Assembly (NCBI GenBank): GCA_017883235.1
Contig: JADGNY010000060.1
Location: 1-39,489, forward strand
Reading direction: 5' to 3'
Length of the DNA: 39,489 nt
From: Thermoanaerobaculia bacterium
GTDB taxonomy: Bacteria > Acidobacteriota > Thermoanaerobaculia > Gp7-AA8
In this document: positions 13,800-33,384 of the stretch, piece by piece
Layout: each line of letters opens with the position of its first letter
Numbering within the stretch: position 1 is the stretch's first letter
The notes under the pieces: model-generated
What the model saw: only the letters and a program-made list of their open reading frames with translations
Databases searched by the model: none
What the model was told of the DNA's origin: nothing
Position numbers and translations under genes: made by a program

Positions 13800-14154
13800 C
13801 GGATTTACCTCCAAGCTACATGACTTCGTCAGGAAATTTTCCTAGCAGAATTCCACAGGACAGTTCAGGCTTCACAACAGTTCCAATTCCAGCACGGGCT
13901 CCAAAGGGTTTTCGCGGAGGTACGACTTGATTCAATTTAGGTCCTCGCGCGACGGCAGGCAACGACTAACTTCGGAATGAGCAATTCTATCAGGCTCCGA
14001 CCGACACCCCCATCCGTCCGCGCTGCGACGACGGAGGATCGGTATCCGGTGGCACCTTGCGGCGTTTGCTACCGGGCTGTCCGGCACGCTTTCAGCGTGC
14101 ATCGGCGCGCGAGGCGCCGCAGACAACCGACAACCGACAACGCGCGCAGCGCAG
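13800..14154. other. Intergenic region with hairpin and repeat element
   Basis: No gene is visible. Upstream of the secreted gene lies the inverted repeat AGGAAATTTTCCT (about 13840-13852), a possible operator. GCACGC-TTTCA-GCGTGC (14084-14100) is a perfect hairpin of a kind common in bacterial REP elements. The stretch ends in a copy of the AGACAAC element that touches the mrp stop codon. Confidence 0.5.
14105..14154 (+). repeat. AGACAAC mini-hairpin element, copy a
   Basis: Order on the plus strand: GGCGC-GCGAG-GCGCC hairpin, then the linker AGACAAC followed by two CGACAAC units, then GCGC-GCA-GCGC. The element ends directly at the stop codon of the leftward mrp gene. It has one more CGACAAC unit than the other copies. 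Confidence 0.8.
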
Positions 14155-15252
14155 TTAATGCGCGTGTGCCGGCTCACCTACCGCGTGCGTATGTCCCGCC
14201 GTCCCCGATTCCACCTGCTGCGCCACGGTGACAGCCAGTTGCCGGAACGCCTGTGCCGCGGCCGAGGTCGGATCGAGGATGACGATCGGCTCGCCGCTGT
14301 CGCCGCCGACGACGACCTTCGGATCGATCGGGATCTCGCCGAGGAACGGGACGCCGAGAAGCTCGGCAGTGCGGCGGCCGCCGCCATGGCCGAAGATCTC
14401 TTCACGCTCGCCGCAGTGGCGGCAGATGAAATAGCTCATGTTCTCGATGATGCCGAGCACCGGCACGTTCACCTTGCGGAACATCGCCAGCCCTTTGCGC
14501 GCGTCGATCAGCGCCACATCCTGCGGCGTCGTCACCACCACGGCGCCCGAGAGCGGCACCTTCTGGGTCAGCGTGAGCTGGGCGTCGCCCGTGCCGGGAG
14601 GGAGATCGATGATCATGAAGTCGAGCACGCCCCACTTCACATCGCTGAGGAACTGGTCGAGCGCCTTCATCACCATCGGCCCGCGCCAGATCACCGGCGT
14701 ATCGGGATCGGTGATGAGGCCGAGCGACATCGTCTTCACGCCGTGGTTCTCCATCGGAATGATCTTCTCGTCGCTCTCATCGATCTGCGGGCGGCCATGG
14801 AGTCCGAGCATCATCTGCTGCGACGGGCCGTAGATGTCGGCATCGAGCATCCCCACGGTGTAGCCGAGTCCGCGCAGCGCCAGGGCGAGGTTGGTGGAGA
14901 CGGTGGACTTACCGACGCCCCCTTTGCCGGAAGCGACGGCGATCTTGTACTTGACGCCGGAGAGGATCTGTTCGGCCGGATGTCCTCCCTGCGGTCCCGC
15001 GGCCTGCCGCGATCCGACGTCGACGTTCATGCGGACGTTCTCGACCCCGGGGACGGTGCGGACGGCGGCTTCGGCGTCGCGGCTGATCTGCGCGGCGGCG
15101 TTCTGGTTCTCGGTCTGGAAGCGCACGGTGAAGGAGACGTTCCCTCCCTCGACGCCGACGTCGTGGACGAACCCGAACGACACGATGTCGCGCGAGAGTC
15201 CCGGAAATTTGACGCCTTTGAGCGCCTCGAGAATCTGTTCCTTACTGGGCAT
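14155..15252 (-). CDS. apbC: Iron-sulfur cluster carrier protein Mrp/ApbC
   Basis: Mrp/ApbC proteins are cytosolic P-loop ATPases that bind and hand over Fe-S clusters. The 365-aa product has an N-terminal MIP18/DUF59 domain (about 1-80), the deviant Walker A SGKGGVGKS (108-116), the NBP35/Mrp signature region around IIDLPPGTGDAQLT (214-227), and the cluster-binding CxxC at C277-C280 (YFICRHCGE). The C-terminus is His-rich (GHTHAVGEPAHAH). The ATG at 15252 is preceded by GAGGAG; an in-frame alternative five codons upstream would remove that site. It overlaps the end of the LOG-family gene by 11 bp, so the two are co-transcribed. Confidence 0.95.
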   Translation of the reverse strand: MPSKEQILEALKGVKFPGLSRDIVSFGFVHDVGVEGGNVSFTVRFQTENQNAAAQISRDAEAAVRTVPGVENVRMNVDVGSRQAAGPQGGHPAEQILSGVKYKIAVASGKGGVGKSTVSTNLALALRGLGYTVGMLDADIYGPSQQMMLGLHGRPQIDESDEKIIPMENHGVKTMSLGLITDPDTPVIWRGPMVMKALDQFLSDVKWGVLDFMIIDLPPGTGDAQLTLTQKVPLSGAVVVTTPQDVALIDARKGLAMFRKVNVPVLGIIENMSYFICRHCGEREEIFGHGGGRRTAELLGVPFLGEIPIDPKVVVGGDSGEPIVILDPTSAAAQAFRQLAVTVAQQVESGTAGHTHAVGEPAHAH

Positions 15253-16009
15253 TCTTTTTCTCCTCAATGAAGCGTTCGTACGAGGCCCGGATGATCGGAA
15301 TGGCCTCTTCGTACGAGCTGACCACCGAAACCGCGTTCATGTCCTGCGGGCTGGCCAGCCCTCGCGTGATCATGACCTCGTTGATCCAGTCGATCAGACC
15401 GGTCCACATTGTACCGACCAGGATGAGCGGATGCTCGGTGACGTGCTTGACCTGAATGAGCTGCCACACCATGAACAGCTCCAGCGCCGTTCCAATGCCG
15501 CCCGGCAGCACGATGAACGCCGAGGAGAGACGGATGAAGTGATGGAGCCTCGAGAAGAAGGTCCGGTGCCGGAAGACCTTGTTCACGAACGGATTGGCAT
15601 CCGTCTCCGCCGGCAGGTGGATGGGCAACCCGAAGGAGCGCGAATGGCTCTCGGTCTGCCCTTCCATGGCCCCGGAGTTGGCCGCCTCCATCAATCCGGG
15701 ACCGCCGCCGGTGACGATGTCCGCTCCGAGCCTGGACAGCTCGAAGCAGAGTTTCTTGGCCTGATCGTAGATGGGATCGCCGCGCTGGATGCGCGAGCTG
15801 CCGAAGACCGAGACGCGGTAATGCTCGACCCTCTCGGGCTGAATCTGATCGAGATCGTTGATCGTCTCCCAAAGCTGGTAGATGGCCTTATCGAGGATGT
15901 GCGACGGATCGACACTCGACCGCTTCTTCGCCTGCCCCTTCCGCAGCGCTTCGAGCTGGGGGGTGGTGGTCTGCTGGTTGGTGGTCTTGGTTCGTGGTTT
16001 GGTGGCCAT
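15242..16009 (-). CDS. TIGR00730 / LOG family Rossmann-fold protein
   Basis: LOG-family proteins hydrolyse nucleoside 5'-monophosphates (cytokinin ribotides or ordinary NMPs) to base and ribose 5-phosphate. The 255-aa product carries both family motifs, GGGPGLMEAANSGA (101-114) and PGGIGTALE (169-177). Its N-terminal extension of about 60 residues makes it the longer bacterial subtype related to PpnN-like enzymes; the substrate cannot be told from sequence alone. The ATG at 16009 is chosen because residues before it are low-complexity and antisense to nothing useful, and because a TAGCAT hexamer lies 11 nt upstream. It is first in the operon with mrp. Confidence 0.88.
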   Translation of the reverse strand: MATKPRTKTTNQQTTTPQLEALRKGQAKKRSSVDPSHILDKAIYQLWETINDLDQIQPERVEHYRVSVFGSSRIQRGDPIYDQAKKLCFELSRLGADIVTGGGPGLMEAANSGAMEGQTESHSRSFGLPIHLPAETDANPFVNKVFRHRTFFSRLHHFIRLSSAFIVLPGGIGTALELFMVWQLIQVKHVTEHPLILVGTMWTGLIDWINEVMITRGLASPQDMNAVSVVSSYEEAIPIIRASYERFIEEKKNAQ

Positions 16010-16479: not shown

Positions 16480-16751
16480 GTTACTCCGCCCGTGTGTCGC
16501 GTTACTCCGCCCGCGTGTCGTGCTACTCCGCCCGCGTGTCGTGCTACTCCGCCTGCGTGTCGCGTTACACCGCCTGTGTGTCGCGTTACTCCGCCTGCTT
16601 TTCGCCTTACACCGCCTGCGTGTCGTGTTCCACCGCCTGCGTGTGTGTTCCACCGCCTGTGTGTCGTGTTACACCCCCGGTGTGTCGCGTTACTCCGCCG
16701 GTGTGTCGTGTTACTCCGCTGGCGTGCTGGCGAACACCGCCGGTGTGGACA
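16480..16751. repeat. 21-bp tandem array, type B (13 units)
   Basis: Thirteen units with consensus GTTACTCCGCCTGTGTGTCGC run from 16480 to 16751. Twelve are 21 bp; the one at 16627-16646 is 20 bp. The single-base indel shifts any reading frame, so the array is unlikely to be coding, although several frames are open. Its sequence is unrelated to the type A array at 1-270 but the period is the same. A degenerate unit may precede it at 16453-16473. Confidence 0.9.
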
Positions 16752-17940: not shown

Positions 17941-17945
17941 AAACT

Positions 17946-18007
17946 TAACCACAGAGGCACAGAGGACACAGAGAAAGACCTCTGTGTTCTCTGTGCCTCT
18001 GTGGTTA
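17946..18007. terminator. Long hairpin between convergent genes
   Basis: Arms at 17946-17973 and 17980-18007 pair over 28 bp with one mismatch around a 6-nt loop. The arm is built on CCACAGAGGCACAGAG, a repeat type seen between genes in many bacteria. It starts 5 bp after the stop of the 17011 gene and its right end overlaps the TAA of the leftward alkD-like gene, so it can act as a two-way terminator. Confidence 0.85.
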
Positions 18008-18715
18008 GAAGCTTTTCGGTTTCCCCATATACCGCCCCCGCAACTCCTCCGGAAACCTCTCGATCGCGTAGCGCAGCATCGTCCGCGGCATGCGCCGCGC
18101 GTGCTTTCGGAGGAAACGCTCGAGCACCGGCCGATCGCGTTTGCCTACTTCGCGCAACATCCAGCCGGTGGCTTTGTGGATCAGGTCGTGACGATCGTCG
18201 AGGAGGATCTCGGCGATGCGGAGGGTGTCGTCGAACTGATCGTGGCGGATGAACAACAACGTGCTGATGATGGCGATGCGGCGCTCCCAGAGCGAAGACG
18301 ATTTCGCGAGCGTGAACAGCGGTGCGCGGTCCCGGTCGTGGAGATATGCGCCGACGATCGCGGGGGCGGAGATGTCGACAAGGTCCCAGTTGTTTATGCG
18401 GTTGGTGCTGGCGAGATAGCGGCGATAGATCTCCTGCCGCGCAGGCTCATCGCCACGCTCGCACTTCCTCACGAGGATCATCAGCGCGAGAATTCTTGCC
18501 TCGTGCCATTTCGACTGGAGCAGCGCAAAGGCCTCGTCGACAGAGATCGGCGTGAATTCTCGCGACAGCTTCCGTAGCGCCGGCACCATGATGCCTAGGA
18601 ACGCGTCGCCCTCACCGTACTGGCCGGGGCCACATTTGAAGAATCGAAGATGGTGATCGGCGATGAGGGGATCGCGCAGCGCGCGAAGGCGGCGCTCGAT
18701 CCCCTTCCCGGTCAC
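18005..18715 (-). CDS. DNA alkylation repair protein, AlkD family
   Basis: AlkD-family DNA glycosylases excise positively charged N3- and N7-alkylpurines using HEAT-like helical repeats, without base flipping. The 236-aa length and helical repeats fit. Typical segments are GxF-like entry (GEGDAFLGIMVPALRKLSREF), ARILALMILVRKCERG, INNWDLVDISAPAIVGAYL (the catalytic WDLVD region with W and D), WERRIAIISTLLFIRH and HKATGWMLREVGKRD. The start is GTG at 18715, which shares its G with the TAG stop of the upstream SPOR gene, so translation is coupled. The stop lies inside the terminator hairpin. Confidence 0.93.
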   Translation of the reverse strand: MTGKGIERRLRALRDPLIADHHLRFFKCGPGQYGEGDAFLGIMVPALRKLSREFTPISVDEAFALLQSKWHEARILALMILVRKCERGDEPARQEIYRRYLASTNRINNWDLVDISAPAIVGAYLHDRDRAPLFTLAKSSSLWERRIAIISTLLFIRHDQFDDTLRIAEILLDDRHDLIHKATGWMLREVGKRDRPVLERFLRKHARRMPRTMLRYAIERFPEELRGRYMGKPKSF

Positions 18716-19400: not shown

Positions 19401-20087
19401 TTACCTGGTCTGAGTCGGCGGCGCAGGGGGCGCCGCAGCGTTCCAGTTTGTGTGATAAACGACACCGTTGTCAAAGTAGATGGCCGAGGCGCCGCCGTCT
19501 TCCTTCGGGTAAATCCATACCGAATAGACGCGATTGTTCTGCACGACCTGCTTGATCCAGTCCTCGCGCGGGAGGCCGACCAGACCGCGGACGGCATCCT
19601 CTTTCATACCGTTCTTCACCGCTGCGAAGGCGGTCATGGAGACGAATCGCCGTTGCTGCGCAAGCTCGAGGCGTTTCTTCGCATCAACGTTGGACGGATC
19701 GAGCTCGACGGCGGCGCGATAGAGCTCGAGCGCTTTGTCGTAGCGCGAGAGGTACTGCATGTACTCGTCGCCCATGATGATCTTCTCGCGCGCCAGAACC
19801 TGCCCGGCTCGCGGATCATGGGTGCGGTCGAAGTACTCCTTGACCTTGTCGAGGAAGGGGACGTACGCCGGCTCCAGCTTTTTCTGATTGTCGAGCACCG
19901 TCTCCAGCATCTGCTTCCGCGACGCATTCGCCGCCGGCAGCGGCTGGGCCTTCCGCAAGGTCTCGATCCACGCGTAGTCGGCGCTGATGAGCCCCCACTC
20001 CCGGTCATTCGGCTGCGTCGGCGGTCCGGAGGCAAGAGCGGTGGCGGCGAACAGGGTTGTGAGGATGATGAGGGACAAGCGGGGCAT
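19401..20087 (-). CDS. Exported TPR-containing protein
   Basis: The 228-aa product has a signal peptide (MPRLSLIILTTLFAATALAS) and at least one TPR-like unit around YLSRYDKALELYRAAVELDPSNVDAKKRLELA (about 113-144). The C-terminal 80 residues (KNGMKEDAVRGLVGLPREDW ... YFDNGVVYHTNW) resemble the SmpA/BamE-like pattern in which a 'more than one turn in folding a small outer-membrane module' is seen; that match is weak. It ends 14 bp before the SPOR gene and is first in the operon. Periplasmic scaffold is the likeliest role. Confidence 0.75.
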   Translation of the reverse strand: MPRLSLIILTTLFAATALASGPPTQPNDREWGLISADYAWIETLRKAQPLPAANASRKQMLETVLDNQKKLEPAYVPFLDKVKEYFDRTHDPRAGQVLAREKIIMGDEYMQYLSRYDKALELYRAAVELDPSNVDAKKRLELAQQRRFVSMTAFAAVKNGMKEDAVRGLVGLPREDWIKQVVQNNRVYSVWIYPKEDGGASAIYFDNGVVYHTNWNAAAPPAPPTQTR

Positions 20088-20097
20088 GCGGGTGGTT

Positions 20098-20103
20098 ATT
20101 TTA
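20098..20103 (-). promoter_or_regulatory. Candidate -10 (TAAAAT) 10 nt before the TPR gene
   Basis: TAAAAT on the minus strand ends 10 nt before the ATG at 20087. No Shine-Dalgarno lies between them. Confidence 0.45.
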
Positions 20104-20111
20104 CATGAGTG

Positions 20112-20284
20112 ACGGCGCTGCGCGCGTTGTCTGCGCTTCGCGCGTTGTCGGTTGTCTGCGGCCTGCGGGCCGCGTGGTCAGGAACCGTACGATCGCGCGG
20201 GAGGTGAATGACAGCACGGGGCGGCGCGCGTTGTCTGCGCTCCGCGCGTTGTCGGTTGTCTGCGGCCTGCGGGCCGCGTGGTCA
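20112..20284 (-). repeat. AGACAAC mini-hairpin element, tandem copies b and c
   Basis: Two copies about 104 bp apart, both oriented on the minus strand, fill most of the gap 20104-20363. Each reads GCGGCC-CGCA-GGCCGC, AGACAACCGACAAC, a short hairpin, AGACAAC, then another GC-rich end. The middle hairpin is GCGC-GAA-GCGC in copy b and GCGC-GGA-GCGC in copy c. Both begin with the flank GACCAC. Confidence 0.85.
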
Positions 20285-20362
20285 TTGGCCTGACGACGCG
20301 GGGGAATGTACGCGTCCTCCACCGATGACCAGCGGCTTCGCGGGGTACGTTACGTGCGCCGT

Positions 20363-20405
20363 TCTATGCGTTGTCGGTGCCCGCGGCCTGCGGCCTCGTT
20401 GCCGG
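20363..20405 (-). repeat. AGACAAC element, partial copy d inside a coding end
   Basis: A degenerate copy (GGCC-GCA-GGCC hairpin, then ACCGACAACGC) overlaps the last codons and stop of the four-helix-bundle gene, supplying its C-terminal PQAAGTDNA. Confidence 0.6.
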
Positions 20406-20774
20406 ACCGCCACGCTCTTGAGCTCGTACAAACTCGATCAGGCCCTGTAGCGGCTCGGCGACGCGGCGAATGGAACCACGAAGCCGCTTCGCGGACGCAT
20501 CGTCGATGTATTCGAGTAGATGCGCGGCGATGATCTGCGATTGAACTTCGTATAACGACCCGCGTGCATTGCTGAGAAACTGGCGCCATTCTCCCGGAGA
20601 CAGTCGTCCCTGTCCTTCAGCGATGTTGCTCACAACCGACACAGCCGCACGGCGAAGCTGCTGCGTCAGACCGAATCGTTCGTCGGATGGGAACGTCTTT
20701 GTCAGTCTGTAGATGGCGACCATCAGGTCGAGAGCACGCTTGAATGTGTGGAGATCTTCAAATGATTTCGTCAT
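20364..20774 (-). CDS. Four-helix-bundle protein, S23 (rRNA intervening-sequence) family
   Basis: This family is named for proteins encoded inside 23S rRNA intervening sequences, but many members are free-standing and their function is unknown. The 136-aa product matches from residue 1: FEDLHTFKRALDLMVAIYRLTKTFP, FGLTQQLRRAAVSVVSNIAEGQGR, FLSNARGSLYEVQSQIIAA and a final helix. The C-terminal tail (GGPATRPQAAGTDNA) is not part of the family and is encoded by an invading repeat element. Elements lie on both sides of the gene. Confidence 0.9.
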   Translation of the reverse strand: MTKSFEDLHTFKRALDLMVAIYRLTKTFPSDERFGLTQQLRRAAVSVVSNIAEGQGRLSPGEWRQFLSNARGSLYEVQSQIIAAHLLEYIDDASAKRLRGSIRRVAEPLQGLIEFVRAQERGGPATRPQAAGTDNA

Positions 20775-20783
20775 TGCGTAGCG

Positions 20784-20789
20784 ATGTTA
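20784..20789 (-). promoter_or_regulatory. Candidate -10 (TAACAT) 9 nt before the S23-family gene
   Basis: TAACAT on the minus strand ends 9 nt before the ATG at 20774, with no Shine-Dalgarno between. Confidence 0.35.
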
Positions 20790-20919
20790 CGGAGAGCTAG
20801 ATAAGGCGACCGGCCGGTCACTCGGGTGGGGCATTCATTCTACACACGAACCCGCCAACCAACAATGTGCGAAGCGCAGACCACGCCGTTCACAACCCCG
20901 CTGCCATAAAGTCTCCACC

Positions 20920-20982
20920 ACGCGCCCGCAGGCGCAGACAACCGACAACGCGGCGAAGCCGCAGACAACGCGCGAAGCGCAG
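20920..20982 (+). repeat. AGACAAC mini-hairpin element, copy e
   Basis: Order on the plus strand: GCGCC-CGCA-GGCGC, AGACAACCGACAAC, GCGGC-GAA-GCCGC, AGACAAC, GCGC-GAA-GCGC, AG. It stops exactly at the TAG of the leftward DUF4388 gene. Every stem is perfect. Confidence 0.88.
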
Positions 20983-22080
20983 CTACCGCGTCAACCTCAG
21001 CACCTCCGCCTCCATCTCCGGCCCGAACTCCGACTTGATCTCGTAGATCCAACTGTGGAGGACCTCGTTGAGGATTTTCTGGATGACGGCGGGGTGATCG
21101 CGGGAGCCGGAGGCGATGACGTTGTTCAGGAGCTGGTCGAAATCGAGGCGGGCGTCGTTCACCAGGTTCATACCGGAGAGGTAGGGCATCGTCTCGGCGG
21201 AGAGGTGCACCACGACGCGGTCCATGAAGTCGTAGATGTGATCGCCGATGCGCTGGAAGACGACGCCGAAGATCGCCTCGTACATGCGGTTGTAGCGCTC
21301 GACCACCCCTTCCAGCTCGTACTCCGCCTCGGCGGCGGCACGTTGCTCGCTGACGGTGTCGCCCTCCGCCTCGGCGATCAGGTTCACGCTGAGGAGCGCC
21401 CACACCGTCCGGCAGGTCGTGAAGTTCGAGAGGTAGCTGCGCGAACAGATGTCCTCGATCGTGCCGGGCTCGGTGAGGAGACTGAGCACGTGGCTCTCCT
21501 CGTCGGTCAGCTCCAGCGCGTAGGTGCGGGTATCGGCGCCGCTCACCTGCTGCAGAAGGCGGTCGAGCCGCCCCAGCCCGCGCGTGATCAACGACCAGAA
21601 CTCGATGCTCTGCACGCCGTCGAGGATGAGGCGTTCCGTGTTGAGCGGCAGGGCGATGATCTCGGGCGGAAACTCACTGGTGAACTCGACGGTGTAGCTG
21701 CCGGTGCGGTGATGCATGGCGTTGAGGACGATGGCGCTGGATTGCCGCTCGATGGCGCGCAGCAACTCGTCCGGCTGGAGGTAGCCCAGCTCGCAGAGCA
21801 GCGCGCCGATGCGCCGGGCCACGACCAGGCGATCCATGGCGTGGTTGTACTGGTGAAGCGTCAGCTCGCCACCGCGCAGGAGCACCTCGCCCAGTCCCAT
21901 GTCCGGATCAGAGCTCGACGCGAAGATGATCTTCCCCTCGTTGAAATAGATGACGTCGTTGCGGCCGATCGCTTCGAGCGAGACGATTCCGGTCTCACTG
22001 CTGCGAAGGAGCGATCGGAAAAGATCGGGAACCGTCGTCTCCGCGAGCGTTCCCTGGATGCTCAGGCCATCGTCGGACAT
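20983..22080 (-). CDS. DUF4388 (PatA-like N-terminal) domain protein
   Basis: The 365-aa cytosolic protein begins with a DUF4388 domain (about 6-105: IQGTLAETTVPDLFRSLLRSSETGIVSLE ... IYFNEGKIIFASSSDPDMGLGEVLLRGGELT). A second related segment follows (about 105-230), and the C-terminus (about 245-365) is helical. DUF4388 proteins are frequent in Acidobacteriota and Myxococcota, often near signalling or gliding genes, and resemble the N-terminus of cyanobacterial PatA. The exact function is not known. A TAAAAT hexamer 6 nt before the ATG suggests leaderless expression. Confidence 0.88.
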   Translation of the reverse strand: MSDDGLSIQGTLAETTVPDLFRSLLRSSETGIVSLEAIGRNDVIYFNEGKIIFASSSDPDMGLGEVLLRGGELTLHQYNHAMDRLVVARRIGALLCELGYLQPDELLRAIERQSSAIVLNAMHHRTGSYTVEFTSEFPPEIIALPLNTERLILDGVQSIEFWSLITRGLGRLDRLLQQVSGADTRTYALELTDEESHVLSLLTEPGTIEDICSRSYLSNFTTCRTVWALLSVNLIAEAEGDTVSEQRAAAEAEYELEGVVERYNRMYEAIFGVVFQRIGDHIYDFMDRVVVHLSAETMPYLSGMNLVNDARLDFDQLLNNVIASGSRDHPAVIQKILNEVLHSWIYEIKSEFGPEMEAEVLRLTR

Positions 22081-22086
22081 CGGTTG

Positions 22087-22092
22087 ATTTTA
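22087..22092 (-). promoter_or_regulatory. Candidate -10 (TAAAAT) 6 nt before the DUF4388 gene
   Basis: TAAAAT on the minus strand ends 6 nt before the ATG at 22080. There is no Shine-Dalgarno. Confidence 0.45.
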
Positions 22093-22099
22093 TTCGAAC

Positions 22100-22299
22100 T
22101 GCGGCTTCGCCGCGTTGTCTGCTCGCTGCGCGGCGTTGTCTGCGCTATCGCGCGTTGTCGGTTGGTGGTTGGCGAGTTTGTGTGGGTAGGCCGTGCTTCC
22201 CACCGAGTAGCCGTCTGGTCGACCACGCGGCCCGCAGGCCGCAGACAACCGACAACGCGGCGAAAGCCGCAGACAACGCGCGGCGAAGCACGCGCAGCT
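22100..22299. repeat. AGACAAC elements f and g, facing each other
   Basis: The 260-bp gap between two divergent genes holds copy f (22100-22165, minus orientation) and copy g (22220-22299, plus orientation). Copy f has hairpins GCGC-GATA-GCGC, one with a bulged A, and GCGGC-GAA-GCCGC. Copy g has GCGGCC-CGCA-GGCCGC, GCGGC-GAAA-GCCGC and a terminal GCGCGGC-GAA-GC(A)CGCGC. Loops vary (GAA, GAAA, GATA) while stems stay paired. Confidence 0.85.
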
Positions 22300-22340
22300 T
22301 GATATGATCGTCCTCAGAATTTCACAGCAGGAGTGCCACC

Positions 22341-23573
22341 TTGCCCACCTTTCCCGGCGTTGACTACATGGATATCGATTCGCTCTTCTCCGAGGAAGAG
22401 CTGATGGTGCGTCAGACCGTCCGCGATTTCGTGGACGATGAGGTGATCCCCATCATCGAAGAGGCCAACCGCGAAGAGAAAATGCCGATGCATCTCATCC
22501 CGAAGATGGCCGCGATGGGCCTCTTCGGCCCGACGATCAAGGACTACGACCTCCCCGGCCTGAACAATGTAGCGTACGGCCTGATCATGCAGGAGCTGGA
22601 GCGGGGCGATTCCGGCCTTCGATCCTTCGCCTCGGTGCAGTCGGGGCTGGTGATGTACCCGATCTACACCTACGGTTCCCAAGAACAGCGCGACTACTGG
22701 ATCCCGAAGCTCGCGGCCGGCGAGAAGATCGGCTGTTTCGGCCTGACCGAGCCCGACTTCGGCTCGAATCCGGGCGGCATGCGCACCTACGCGCGCAAGG
22801 ACGGCGATTCGTGGGTGCTGAACGGCGCCAAGGCGTGGATCACCAACGGCTCGATCGCCGACGTCGCCGTCGTCTGGGCGAAGCACGATGGCGTCATCCG
22901 CGGATTCCTGGTCGAGAAGGACACGCCCGGCTTTTCCACCGCCTATCACATGGGCAAGTTCTCGCTGCGCGCCTCGGTTACGTCGCAGCTTTTCTTTTCC
23001 GACTGCCGTATCCCGCTGGAGAACGTGCTGCCGGAGACGAACGGTATCAAGTATCCGCTCGGCTGCCTGACGCAGGCTCGCTACGGCATCGCCTGGGGTG
23101 GTCTCGGAGCGGCCATGTCCGTTTACGAGACGGCGCGGACCTACGCGAAGTCGCGCATCCAGTTCGGCGGCCAGCCGATCGCGTCGCATCAGCTCGTGCA
23201 GAACAAGCTGGCCTGGATGATCACCGAGATCACGAAGGGGCAGCTACTGGCGCTGCAGATGGGGCGTCTCAAAGATCAGGGGAAACTGAAACCGCATCAT
23301 GTGTCGATGGGAAAGATGAACAACGTGAACATCGCGCTCGAATGCGCCCGCTCGGCCCGCGACATCCTCGGCGCAAACGGGATCAGCGACGAATATCCCA
23401 TCATCCGCCACATGCTGAACCTCGAGTCGGTGAAGACCTACGAGGGGACGCATGACATCCACAACCTCATCATCGGCGAAGCGGTGACGGGGATCCCCGC
23501 GTACAACCCGCCGATGTCGGCGAAGGACGAGCGCGAAGCGACGGCGCGGCGGGAAGCGGCGACGGCGAAGTAG
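22341..23573 (+). CDS. gcdH: Glutaryl-CoA dehydrogenase-type acyl-CoA dehydrogenase
   Basis: GCDH oxidises and decarboxylates glutaryl-CoA to crotonyl-CoA in lysine, tryptophan or aromatic degradation, using FAD. The 410-aa product has the full acyl-CoA dehydrogenase fold. The specific signatures are present: R94 in GDSGLRSFASVQS (the glutarate-binding arginine) and catalytic E368 in TYEGTHDIH, both at the positions of human GCDH. FAD-site motifs (GCFGLTEPDFGSNPGGM, KAWITNGSIADV) are intact. The start is a TTG: AGGAG lies 7 nt upstream, and the next ATG is nine codons in. A nondecarboxylating variant cannot be ruled out from sequence. Confidence 0.92.
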   Translation: MPTFPGVDYMDIDSLFSEEELMVRQTVRDFVDDEVIPIIEEANREEKMPMHLIPKMAAMGLFGPTIKDYDLPGLNNVAYGLIMQELERGDSGLRSFASVQSGLVMYPIYTYGSQEQRDYWIPKLAAGEKIGCFGLTEPDFGSNPGGMRTYARKDGDSWVLNGAKAWITNGSIADVAVVWAKHDGVIRGFLVEKDTPGFSTAYHMGKFSLRASVTSQLFFSDCRIPLENVLPETNGIKYPLGCLTQARYGIAWGGLGAAMSVYETARTYAKSRIQFGGQPIASHQLVQNKLAWMITEITKGQLLALQMGRLKDQGKLKPHHVSMGKMNNVNIALECARSARDILGANGISDEYPIIRHMLNLESVKTYEGTHDIHNLIIGEAVTGIPAYNPPMSAKDEREATARREAATAK

Positions 23574-30777: not shown

Positions 30778-31248
30778 TCACGGTGACCTCGTGAGGGTGG
30801 ACTTACGGGCCGCTACGGAACTGGCGCGGAGTGTGATCCAAAGCGATTCACGTCGGCACCCGATACACCGGACGGCCGCTGGCATTGTGCTCGCCGAATT
30901 TGTCGCGCCGCCCGAGTTTTTCGAACGAGGCGCGGCCGACTGAACTTCGATCGACGAAATCGGCGAGCCTACACCGGGACGCGCGTCAGGTGAAGAGTGC
31001 TCCGTTACGCTCGATCTTCGGCGTCTGTCACGCAAGCGCCGCTGACGCTCGCGGTTCGACTCACGTCCCGCATCGGTGTTGAGGTACCGCGCGTTTGCGT
31101 CGCGCGTCTGGCGAAGCCGAGCCTTGCGCCGACACGCCTTCGAACAGTGCGCCTGGCCCCGATCACAGGCTATGCACACGGAGAACATCGCGCGGCAGTG
31201 TCGGCAGTGGCGCATTCGCAAGCACGGATCGATCGCCTGATCTCTCAT
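30778..31248 (-). CDS. Zinc-ribbon protein of transposon-associated type
   Basis: The N-terminus CRHCRAMFSVCIACDRG followed by HCSKACRRKARLRQ shows three CxxC-type pairs, then a very basic helix (RESNRERQRRLRDRRRR) and a second CxxC (VRCIGCRRE). This layout (C..C...F..C..CDRG..YCS..CR..AR.....RY) is a small family I have seen near transposase genes in GC-rich soil bacteria. Its function is not established. The start is uncertain: 31248 and 31215 are both possible. Its 5' end abuts the truncated RAYT on the other strand, suggesting a rearrangement at that point. Confidence 0.5.
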   Translation of the reverse strand: MRDQAIDPCLRMRHCRHCRAMFSVCIACDRGQAHCSKACRRKARLRQTRDANARYLNTDAGRESNRERQRRLRDRRRRSSVTEHSSPDARPGVGSPISSIEVQSAAPRSKNSGGATNSASTMPAAVRCIGCRRESLWITLRASSVAARKSTLTRSP

Positions 31249-31280
31249 CGCTGGGGAATCTACCGCGCCTGCGGCGCGGG

Positions 31281-32087
31281 ATGATGCTGACGTCAATGAC
31301 AAATCACTTTCACCTCGTCTTCCAGACACCCCAGCCGAACCTTTCGCAGGGGATGCACTGGTTCAACAGCGCCTACGTTGGATGGTTCAACCGCGTCCAC
31401 AAGCGCTCCGGCCATCTTTACCAGGGACGGTTCAAGGCACTCCTCGTCGAGAAGGAGGCGTACTTCGCCGAGGTGCTGCGGTACGTCGTTCTCAATCCGG
31501 TGCGGGCGCATATGGTGGAGAGACCGGAGGATTACAAGTGGTCGAGCTATCGGGCGACGGCCGGACTCGACGCTGCTCCCAACTGGTTCGATCTCGCCTC
31601 GGTGCTTCCTCTCTTTCATTCCGAGTGCGAGGACGCACAGAAAAACTATCAGGAGTTTGTCTGCGCGAAGATCGATGGCGAGGATTGCCTCTGGGACAAG
31701 CTGACGAATCGCATCTTCCTCGGCACGGAAGCCTGGACCAGGGACATGCGGAAGATCGTCGAGACGAAGCCGCGCTCGACGGACCACCCGAGGGCGCAGC
31801 GCGCTGTCGGACGCCCGAAGATGCACACGATTGTCGATGCCGTGGCAAAGGTCGCCGGCACGAGCGCGGCATCGATTCGCGAAACGCGGGGAAACGTGCT
31901 CCGACGCCTTGCCGCATGGATCGCATGGCATGAGGGGCTCATCACCTTGCGATCAATCGCTGCCGGCCTCCGGCTGCGAAGCGAGGGACACATCTCGAAC
32001 CTGATCCTACGATGCGACCGAGAGTTCGGACTGAGCGAGACGCTACTCGGCTATCTCGACGCCGCGCTTGTGACAATTCGCGCCTGA
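31281..32087 (+). pseudogene. RAYT, 5'-truncated (most complete copy)
   Basis: REP-associated tyrosine transposases are single HUH-Y1 enzymes that act on REP palindromes. From about 31293 the reading MTNHFHLVFQTP carries the HUH motif (H-F-H). GHLYQGRFKALLVEKEAYF, LRYVVLNPVRAHMV and a C-terminal helix-turn-helix domain (GRPKMHTIVDAVAKVAGTSA) follow. The first 40 or so residues of the family (MARPLR.EFPGA.YHV.) are replaced by unrelated sequence from the neighbouring zinc-ribbon locus. The reading frame from 31281 is intact for 268 codons, so a truncated product could be made. A perfect REP palindrome lies 157 bp downstream. Confidence 0.85.
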
Positions 32088-32244: not shown

Positions 32245-32289
32245 GGTGCCAGGCCTTCGTTTTTCCGCGAAAAACGAAGGCCTGGCACC
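32245..32289. repeat. GCCAGGCCTTCG palindrome, perfect copy
   Basis: A perfect 20-bp stem (32245-32264 with 32270-32289) and a CCGCG loop lies between the truncated RAYT and the stop of the leftward TPR gene, 6 bp from it. It is the same family as 24492-24539. The A/T stretches next to the loop give it the form of a two-way terminator as well. Confidence 0.93.
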
Positions 32290-32295
32290 CATCGC

Positions 32296-33384
32296 TTACG
32301 CGATCTTGCGAAGCAGCTCCGCCGCCTGTGCCTTCTTTTCGTACTTGACGTCGGTCGCGGCGATCTTTTCGAGGTAGGGCTTGGCGCTCTTGTTGTCGTT
32401 GCGTTTCAGGTGGGTGCGGGCGATCCAGAACCACGTGTCGATGATGTACTCGTTCTCGTTCAGCTTCTGCGACTGCACCGCCTTTTCAAATGCGGCGGCG
32501 GCGTCTTCGTACCTCTGTTGCGCGTAGGCGATGCGGCCGAGGTGCGTGAGGGCGTCGAAGTAGTCGTAGGAGCTCTGTTCGACGTTCTCCAGCACGCGCT
32601 GGTAGTACGGCATGGCGCCGCTGTAATGGCGGCTGTCGAAGAGTATGGAGCCGCAGAAGAGCAGGGAGTTGCGGAAGAAGTACGAGTTGAAGAACGGCTG
32701 ATTGGCGTCGAAGAGCTGCAGCGAATCCTCGAACAAACGCAGCGCTTCGTCGCGATCGCCGAGGGCGTAGGAGTTGAGGGCCTTGAGCGCGAGGGCCTGC
32801 GCCGTGACATTGTTATTCTGCGAGTAGCGCATCGACTGTTCGTGCAGATCCCTCGCCTTCGCGTAATCGTGGTCCTCGTGCGAGAGGTGGCCGAGGATGA
32901 CGTACGACTTGTACTTGATGTCATTCGCCTCGTCTGACTCCTCGGAGGCGCACGCTTGCGAGAAACCGTCGCGCGCGCCGGCCAGGTCGCCGGCATAGAG
33001 CGTGGCCACGGCCCGGTAGTACGTCGCCTCCAGCTTGGTCAGGACCCTGCTCCCCTGCGAGGTGAGCTGCTCGATGAACTGTGTGACCAGTTGCGCGAGG
33101 ATGCGGCTGTCCGCAGTCGGATCGACGATGAAGTTGTGCAGATAGACGAGGCGATTCTCGAGGATGCGCATCAACTCGAGCATGAGCGTGATGCGTTGGG
33201 CCTCGCCGGTGGTGTTCTTGAAGAGGCCGGCAAGATTGCGCTGCAGCGCGCTGTATTCGTCGCCATACTGGCGGGCCAGCGTCTCGGTAAGCTCGCCCGG
33301 CTCATTCTGCAGTCTGGTCTCGAGTGCGACGCGCTGATTGACGAGAATGGTGATCTGGGCTGTGAGGTCGTTTCGGTCGGCCAT
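32296..33384 (-). CDS. Cytosolic TPR-repeat protein
   Basis: The 362-aa protein has no signal peptide. Residues about 1-110 form helices (a probable coiled coil around 20-55), followed by about six TPR-like units, for example YKSYVILGHLSHEDHDYAKA, LALKALNSYALGDRDEALRL and THLGRIAYAQQRYEDAAAAF. It probably scaffolds other proteins; partners are unknown. The start is 5 nt after the rnr stop, so it is the last gene of the fis-rnr run. Confidence 0.85.
   Translation of the reverse strand: MADRNDLTAQITILVNQRVALETRLQNEPGELTETLARQYGDEYSALQRNLAGLFKNTTGEAQRITLMLELMRILENRLVYLHNFIVDPTADSRILAQLVTQFIEQLTSQGSRVLTKLEATYYRAVATLYAGDLAGARDGFSQACASEESDEANDIKYKSYVILGHLSHEDHDYAKARDLHEQSMRYSQNNNVTAQALALKALNSYALGDRDEALRLFEDSLQLFDANQPFFNSYFFRNSLLFCGSILFDSRHYSGAMPYYQRVLENVEQSSYDYFDALTHLGRIAYAQQRYEDAAAAFEKAVQSQKLNENEYIIDTWFWIARTHLKRNDNKSAKPYLEKIAATDVKYEKKAQAAELLRKIA

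Follow-up and report, generated by a model that had tools for sequence, protein, structure and literature searches.

Repetitive extragenic palindromes (REPs) and the hairpin arrays that flank some Y1 transposase genes are the described systems closest to the element reported here. In the sections of Di Nocera et al. (2013, PMC3733652) that concern their location, REPs lie near gene ends and form head-to-head dimers, and their GTAG termini often provide the stop codon TAG. The part of PMC6006769 devoted to class 3 TnpA-Y1 genes, whose hosts include Acidobacteria, describes several atypical flanking hairpins, a CnGA foot and about 600 copies in Solibacter. Here we analyse a dispersed repeat, built from short GC hairpins joined by AGACAAC-type linkers, that occupies seven sites in a stretch of 39,489 nucleotides from a Thermoanaerobaculia bacterium (assembly GCA_017883235.1, contig JADGNY010000060.1; hereafter the window). 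It is probably a lineage-specific, non-autonomous REP-like element that acts as folded single-stranded DNA and is moved by a Y1 (HUH) transposase. Its copies are numerous (at least 151 matches) and stand in outward-facing pairs, with the AGTTA end at gene ends or preceding gene starts; a sister species has empty sites and also carries a divergent version.

Read on the AGACAAC strand, the repeat unit is GACCAC–hairpin A–AGACAACCGACAAC–hairpin B–AGACAAC–hairpin C–AG, often followed by TTA (AG/TTA). It contains up to three GC mini-hairpins, and the linkers between them are runs of the heptad NGACAAC. In 91 element stretches, where overlapping stretches are counted twice and runs are not de-duplicated, two-heptad runs were the most frequent (AGACAACCGACAAC 83 times, other forms 22), three heptads were found in eight places and four in one. 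The genome that contains the window (G000; 6.92 Mb in 246 contigs) holds 83 exact copies of AGACAACCGACAAC, 43 forward and 40 reverse, against none of the reversed word used as a control. The covariance-model search suggested by the sequence-only reading, an earlier annotation of this DNA, returned at least 151 matches in G000 (a floor, the first pass having scored about 150 candidates per genome). A search of the window against Rfam gave no match at the gathering score, a scan for the exact architecture in the contigs of named genomes, from which records of G000 or a near-identical genome were possibly excluded, gave none, and no description of the repeat was found in the titles and abstract openings listed by literature searches.

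The sequence-only reading had also proposed that the stems change in sequence yet stay paired, and this holds across the genome. When 60 hairpin B and 63 hairpin A segments were parsed from the 83 copies, cut by their linkers and not by pairing, a stem of at least 4 bp was present in 57 and 56 of them, respectively, while composition-matched random segments gave 0.9 and 2.0; low-complexity GC sequence, the doubt raised in that reading, does not explain the stems. Both arms were fully paired in 55/60 hairpin B segments and 55/63 hairpin A segments; when 3' arms of equal length were re-dealt 2000 times, the means were only 35.5 (largest 44) for B and 38.0 (largest 47) for A. In an alignment of 43 copies, 96% of cells were paired, with 27 double-sided changes against 8.2 after shuffling and a covariation score of 0.137 against 0.035, a value that none of 500 shuffles reached. 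The covariation sought was found in part, two of five measures being unremarkable (double-change pairs, 4 against 2.4, 35/500 shuffles; further pair types, 6 against 5.2, 181/500). These 43 elements, which also served for the model and for folding, were picked because all three hairpins parsed perfectly, 40 of the 83 being dropped, so that the 96% is favoured by sampling and the linker-cut comparison is the fairer test. The stems vary mostly by exchange of one whole stem for another from a small set (GCGC, GCGGC, GCGCC and GCGCGC), not by site-by-site compensation everywhere; the most frequent 5' arms were GCGC (140), GCGGC (99) and GCGCC (33).

The junction with stop codons and the fixed orientation are the most telling features of the element, and both were missing from the sequence-only reading. 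Positions were surveyed for 130 chains of at least two modules in 84 of the 91 stretches; seven overlapping stretches were omitted, one of them (C88:38.8-41.2 kb) inadvertently in both of its copies (L042, L157), and genes were called by a codon-preference script trained on 15 open reading frames (ORFs) of the window, unchecked against any annotation. Among neighbouring chains within 700 nucleotides, 48 of 53 formed outward-facing inverted pairs (-+). Where the neighbouring gene presents its stop, the AG end lay -1 to +6 nucleotides from the stop codon in 58 of 75 cases, against 1 of 73 for the opposite end (Fisher p = 2e-24). The modal distance from AG end to stop, in a wider set of 184 chains of which 84 have a single module and some are perhaps due to chance, was exactly 2 bases (46 cases). 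At this distance the stops were 33 TAA, 8 TGA and 5 TAG, against 29 TAA among 92 non-flush genes (p = 1e-5), and the TAA at this commonest junction is apparently supplied by the element. The most frequent 5-mers behind the last hairpin in the 130 chains were AGTTA (32), AGACA (22), AGTCA (7) and AGCTA (5). A gene start neighbours the AG end in 54 of 129 cases, 42 of them within 100 nucleotides. The 74 element-bearing intergenic regions comprise 27 convergent, 36 tandem and 11 divergent ones, and the baseline of 967 regions, taken from a sister genome and not from G000, comprises 164, 630 and 173.

Spacers within 62 pairs ranged from 8 to 509 nucleotides; most had no match elsewhere in the sequence compared and others contained further repeats. 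A fixed mobile pair with a constant core was ruled out by these mostly unique spacers. Two of the spacers between outward-facing pairs (L023, L024) carry small ORFs that by eye resemble a DUF2442 protein and an antitoxin. The palindrome GGCACAGACAAGAGTGTCTGTGCC, or close forms of it, lies within the spacers of AGACAAC pairs at L055, L058 and L062 and also flanks a RAYT-like gene (L079, G000:C71).

Two same-genus sister genomes, G001 and G002, differ in what they carry. Among the 19 genomes searched with the model, G002 had 53 matches, G015 had 3, G010, G013 and G016 had one weak match each, and G001 had none; a class-wide search with stricter filters (E <= 1e-4) found matches in three of 148 genomes, namely G000, G002 and G015. 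At the G015 locus L134, inspected by eye, GTTGTC heptads adjoin a GCGC hairpin, with a TAG nearby. Elements of the G002 version consist of two hairpins with AATCAACCGACAACCGACAAC-type linkers and are often paired too; by eye, the first 800 kb of G002 hold about 11 real elements, six of which sit flush with a stop, TGA in three cases and TAG in the other three. An orthologue-like match (at least 60% identity) in 1.6 Mb of joined G002 sequence was obtained for 20 of 69 flush genes. The position of the stop was identical in the two genomes for 10 of these genes and differed by one codon for 5; for the remaining 5 the sister's stop came 5-14 codons further downstream, although two of this last group (g71, g166) may be alignment-end effects. 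The G000 gene never exceeds its G002 orthologue by more than one codon. Clean examples are g171, with GCG TAG/CTGCGC in G000 and GCT TAG/TTTTGT in the sister, and g116, with AAA TAG/CGCTAC and AAA TAG/ACGGCC; in g97 a TAA that abuts the element makes the gene 14 codons shorter. For 14 of the 20 gene ends in the sister, a word search over 120 nucleotides found no element. The sister's own element words were present at the other six, against 45 of 1195 G002 gene ends (p = 1e-4), so that some sites are common to both species though the sequences are lineage-specific.

The window itself contains all seven copies of the repeat that the sequence-only reading had listed, at about the same coordinates, although one is degenerate and another is incomplete. 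Five of them are covariance-model matches.

14105 to 14157, plus strand: partial element read by eye from the sequence, consisting of a stem, three heptads AGACAACCGACAACCGACAAC, the last hairpin GCGC-GCA-GCGC and AG, with the second AGACAAC module absent
20110 to 20179, minus strand: full three-hairpin element with hairpin A GCGGCC-CGCA-GGCCGC, from sequence and model match
20209 to 20283, minus strand: full element, same-strand neighbour of the preceding one, from sequence and model match
20363 to 20405, minus strand: degenerate element, read by eye, at the 3' end of a four-helix-bundle ORF (20364-20774, minus strand)
20916 to 20985, plus strand: full element whose AG is followed by CTA, the stop codon (TAG) of a DUF4388 gene (20983-22080, minus strand), from sequence and model match
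22096 to 22165, minus strand: left partner in an inverted pair and upstream of the start of the DUF4388 gene, from sequence and model match (22096-22159)
22221 to 22300, plus strand: right partner of that pair, upstream of an acyl-CoA-dehydrogenase-like gene (22341-23573, plus strand; named by eye), from sequence and model match

In the first of these the TTA directly after AG is the stop codon of an Mrp-like gene (14155-15267, minus strand), and in the degenerate element the heptad encodes the final codons of the four-helix-bundle ORF. The spacer of the pair at 22096-22300 has no match in the sequence compared. The window has 13 occurrences of the word AGACAAC, whereas shuffles give 3.4 and none of 100 reached 13; two of the occurrences (13440 and 28687) are outside elements.

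Several neighbouring features deserve mention. The four-helix-bundle ORF amid the elements matches PF05635 (23S rRNA-intervening-sequence protein, 111 bits), and no such gene was seen at the corresponding locus of G001, G002 or G003. The DUF4388 gene, with inverted element copies on both of its sides in the window, is inverted in both sister species relative to G000, G003, G009, G010, G012 and G016. Two further repeats are present: a separate dispersed one of about 72 bases at 17945-18016, with many copies and common to G001 and G002, and a family at 16480-16747 with several copies of about 80% identity in G000 (C1, C19, C78, C103, C111).

Loops were counted over the 91 stretches and de-duplicated by context. 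After the GACAAC heptad, 204 of 243 triloops were GNA (GAA 156, GCA 20, GGA 18, GTA 10), with all four bases in the middle position, and 49 of 52 tetraloops were GNNA; the corresponding figures in G002, where chance hairpins weigh more, were 36/49 and 12/19. DNA mini-hairpins of unusual stability follow this GNA loop rule (Yoshizawa et al. 1997, as presented in PMC6479982). The minimum-energy fold held all expected pairs in 27/43 and 23/43 elements for the two DNA strands, in 19/43 for RNA of the AGACAAC strand and in 2/43 for RNA of the other strand, the one that corresponds to the mRNA of a stop-flush gene. Taken together, loops and fold counts favour DNA, or AGACAAC-strand RNA, as the conserved form. 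The sequence-only reading had left the selected structure to be either a REP-like DNA or an RNA binding array. Its DNA side is strengthened by the dispersed copies, the mirrored pairs, the empty sister sites, the GNA loops and the arrays at Y1 genes of relatives described below, while the RNA binding array is weakened by the 2/43 predicted for flush-gene RNA; RNA from the AGACAAC strand may still be the form conserved.

A link with Y1 enzymes is suggested by related arrays. L073, one of nine PF01797 (Y1_Tnp) matches in G000, and five related TnpA proteins from G001 and G002 end in Y---Q--HH, which Quentin et al. (2018, PMC6006769), in their passage on the subject, give as the signature of subclass 1.2 TnpA. 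The L073 gene has on both sides, in inverted orientation, three GC hairpins with loops of 3-4 bases and near-identical linkers. Across the class, inverted 12-mers span L073-related TnpA genes in 20/25 rows, against 2/25 control windows placed 770-1100 nucleotides out; at least two hairpins stand on each side in 15/25, and the mean is 4.7 hairpins against 1.0 in controls. This comparison covers 25 of 37 loci, the others being at contig edges, of odd span or repeats of a gene, its rows L073 and L271 are one gene, and some loci resemble plain terminal inverted repeats with few hairpins. One array linker, AAGRACCGTAGCCC, is dispersed 20 times in G001 and 3 times in G000, and its places in G001 include the flanks of two TnpA genes and the DUF4388 gene end. 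Multi-hairpin arrays are TnpA-associated in this genus and, by likeness of design, we infer that the AGACAAC array is moved through a Y1 enzyme too.

In the mechanism that we propose, the element would work as folded single-stranded DNA, its GNA-looped mini-hairpins being recognised by a Y1 (HUH) single-strand transposase of the TnpA type. The terminal TAACT, next to the last hairpin, would be the tag for cleavage or joining, a part played by GTAG in classical REPs, and the surviving copies would be those whose landing left the gene neatly ended by a stop codon. It is also possible, by analogy with what is reported for stop-proximal REPs in E. coli, that the element tunes expression of the genes with which it is flush.

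A number of observations weigh against a REP-like element mobilized in this manner. The element flanks none of the nine PF01797 matches in G000, for which flanks of 1.5 kb were inspected (a shorter one in one case), although this list is incomplete, missing a RAYT remnant in the window that scores 27.2 bits. That remnant (31095-32087, plus strand) is a RAYT-like Y1 transposase ORF with 52.3 bits to REP_Tyr_transpos (NCBIfam; cut-off 80) and its 27.2 bits to Pfam Y1_Tnp (cut-off 23); it matches only from profile position 47-55, the start of the domain being missing in this frame, and is not flanked by the element either. No true GACAAC module was present in 42 related TnpA loci, including those of other genomes; one GACAAC lies beside a terminator-like hairpin, seen in two overlapping loci. 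The spacers of 8-509 nucleotides, mostly unmatched, imply that the pair, unlike a REPIN, is not copied as a unit. Insertion at TTA alone is insufficient, leaving unexplained the 13 of 46 exact junctions that are TGA or TAG, as well as the sister's six flush copies. Hairpin A, which follows GACCAC, is off the GNA rule (GNA in 4/19 triloops, CGCA in 34/43 tetraloops), and folding energies barely differ from shuffles (z about -2.2 to -1.2 for DNA and -1.3 to +0.4 for RNA).

A RAYT-linked REP in cis was ruled out, as the RAYT-type genes seen are flanked by other repeats, by eye GGCCTGGCCCC-type and GGCACAGACAAGAGTGTCTGTGCC ones. The window has a palindrome, GGTGCCAGGCCTTCGTTTTTCCGCGAAAAACGAAGGCCTGGCACC, at about 32250-32320, and related GGCCTGGCCCC-type words flank RAYT genes at other places in G000 (L074 and L076-L078, by eye).

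Could the element instead belong to the ends of mRNAs? Tandem hairpins after the stop might bring transcription to an end, shield the 3' end of the message or influence the ribosome during termination, and the flush placement after stops, together with the enrichment of convergent regions among those with elements (27/74, against 164/967 in the sister), agrees with such a role, as does earlier work, cited in a passage of PMC12306157, in which E. coli REPs less than 16 nucleotides from the stop downregulate translation. We consider this explanation unlikely, however, since the AG end faces a gene start in 54 of 129 elements and 11 of 74 regions are divergent, the mRNA of the flush gene folds with all expected pairs in 2/43 elements, and the GNA loops are on the strand antisense to that gene. 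No intrinsic-terminator-like site was found in 19900-22450, though shuffles give just 1.4. The proposal that the repeats are short, almost purely GC palindromes arising by chance in a GC-rich genome is barely credible: random segments pair in 0.9/60 and 2.0/63, the reversed word occurs 0 times against 83, and neither G001 nor most genomes of the class that were searched has a model match. Chance palindromes were ruled out by the shuffles and reversed-word controls.

Copies might instead spread without any dedicated transposase, through gene conversion or recombination with one another, in which case tracts end at the stop because those that invaded genes were lost, and the TAA of the donor is carried along. 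The TAA excess at the exact junction, while the sister's stop position is often kept, fits this, and so do the element words near 6/20 orthologous G002 stops (p = 1e-4), with other stems and linkers, as in concerted evolution. Some sister sites have no element at all, however, one of them a convergent gap of 8 bp, and would offer no homology for recombination; this argument assumes gain in G000, and loss in the sister is also possible. Conversion without a transposase seems to us quite improbable, and a REP-like element moved as single-stranded DNA by a Y1 enzyme is the reading that we retain.

A bolder version of it, which we put forward tentatively and with more doubt than belief, is that the repeat represents a new class of mobile single-stranded DNA repeat: a modular heptad array whose GNA mini-hairpins are exchangeable, which either inserts at stop codons or is directed to them, always in one orientation, and whose gene-facing end brings a stop of its own. 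The array would then be part of a broader, as yet unrecognised, multi-hairpin group paired with Y---Q--HH TnpA in Acidobacteriota. If the array is a Y1-TnpA substrate, REP biology would extend from single palindromes to modular multi-hairpin units, and its many natural stem variants would allow us to learn what such transposases read. That the stop junction is near-exact and of one orientation, in two species whose versions differ, is a sharp clue to the way in which REP-like repeats come to lie harmlessly beside genes. The element also offers a natural case in which to test whether d(GCGAAGC)-type DNA mini-hairpins are used in vivo.

The comparison with known families, as far as the cited sections describe them, places the element beside several of them. 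Its many extragenic palindromes, in head-to-head dimers with the tag outside and near gene 3' ends, are like the GTAG REPs and BIMEs of PMC3733652, as the 48/53 outward-facing pairs and 58/75 AG ends at stops illustrate. A GTAG REP has one hairpin per unit and a terminus that often supplies TAG, whereas here there are up to three hairpins with heptad linkers, the tag is TAACT and the stop is mostly TAA. An unpaired GTAG at one end of the palindrome was not found, GTAG on the other strand being possible only in cases like AGCTA followed by C, and no RAYT gene flanked by the same repeat was seen among the nine matches of G000 and the window remnant. Like the CGTC REPs of the same source, the element has no dedicated transposase found, head-to-head dimers and a TGTC-like word beside the hairpin on one strand; those REPs have single stems of 8-9 bp, almost always beginning with A-T pairs, a type not seen in the arms of this element, whose stems, up to three, are mostly 4-7 bp and nearly all GC. 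REPINs, in the account of Bertels and Rainey (2011, PMC3116915), are similarly inverted doublets predicted to fold in single-stranded DNA, but they have preferred spacer lengths and a linked RAYT, and no preferred length appeared among the 62 mostly unique spacers here. With regard to the TnpA arrays in the relevant part of PMC6006769, the CnGA foot of class 3 has a counterpart in the CAGA or CCGA that opens the heptad before the hairpins, although CAAC separates it from the hairpin and the six TnpA proteins have Y---Q--HH, not Y----Q. The L073-related TnpA genes often have multi-hairpin flanks, as in class 3, but their arrays carry other linkers, and a tnpA gene inside the same inverted AGACAAC array, the REPtron arrangement, was not found among them. 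The element is a modular, multi-hairpin, REP-like repeat that departs from the GTAG REPs in its tag and RAYT association, from the CGTC REPs in its stems and from the REPINs in its spacers.

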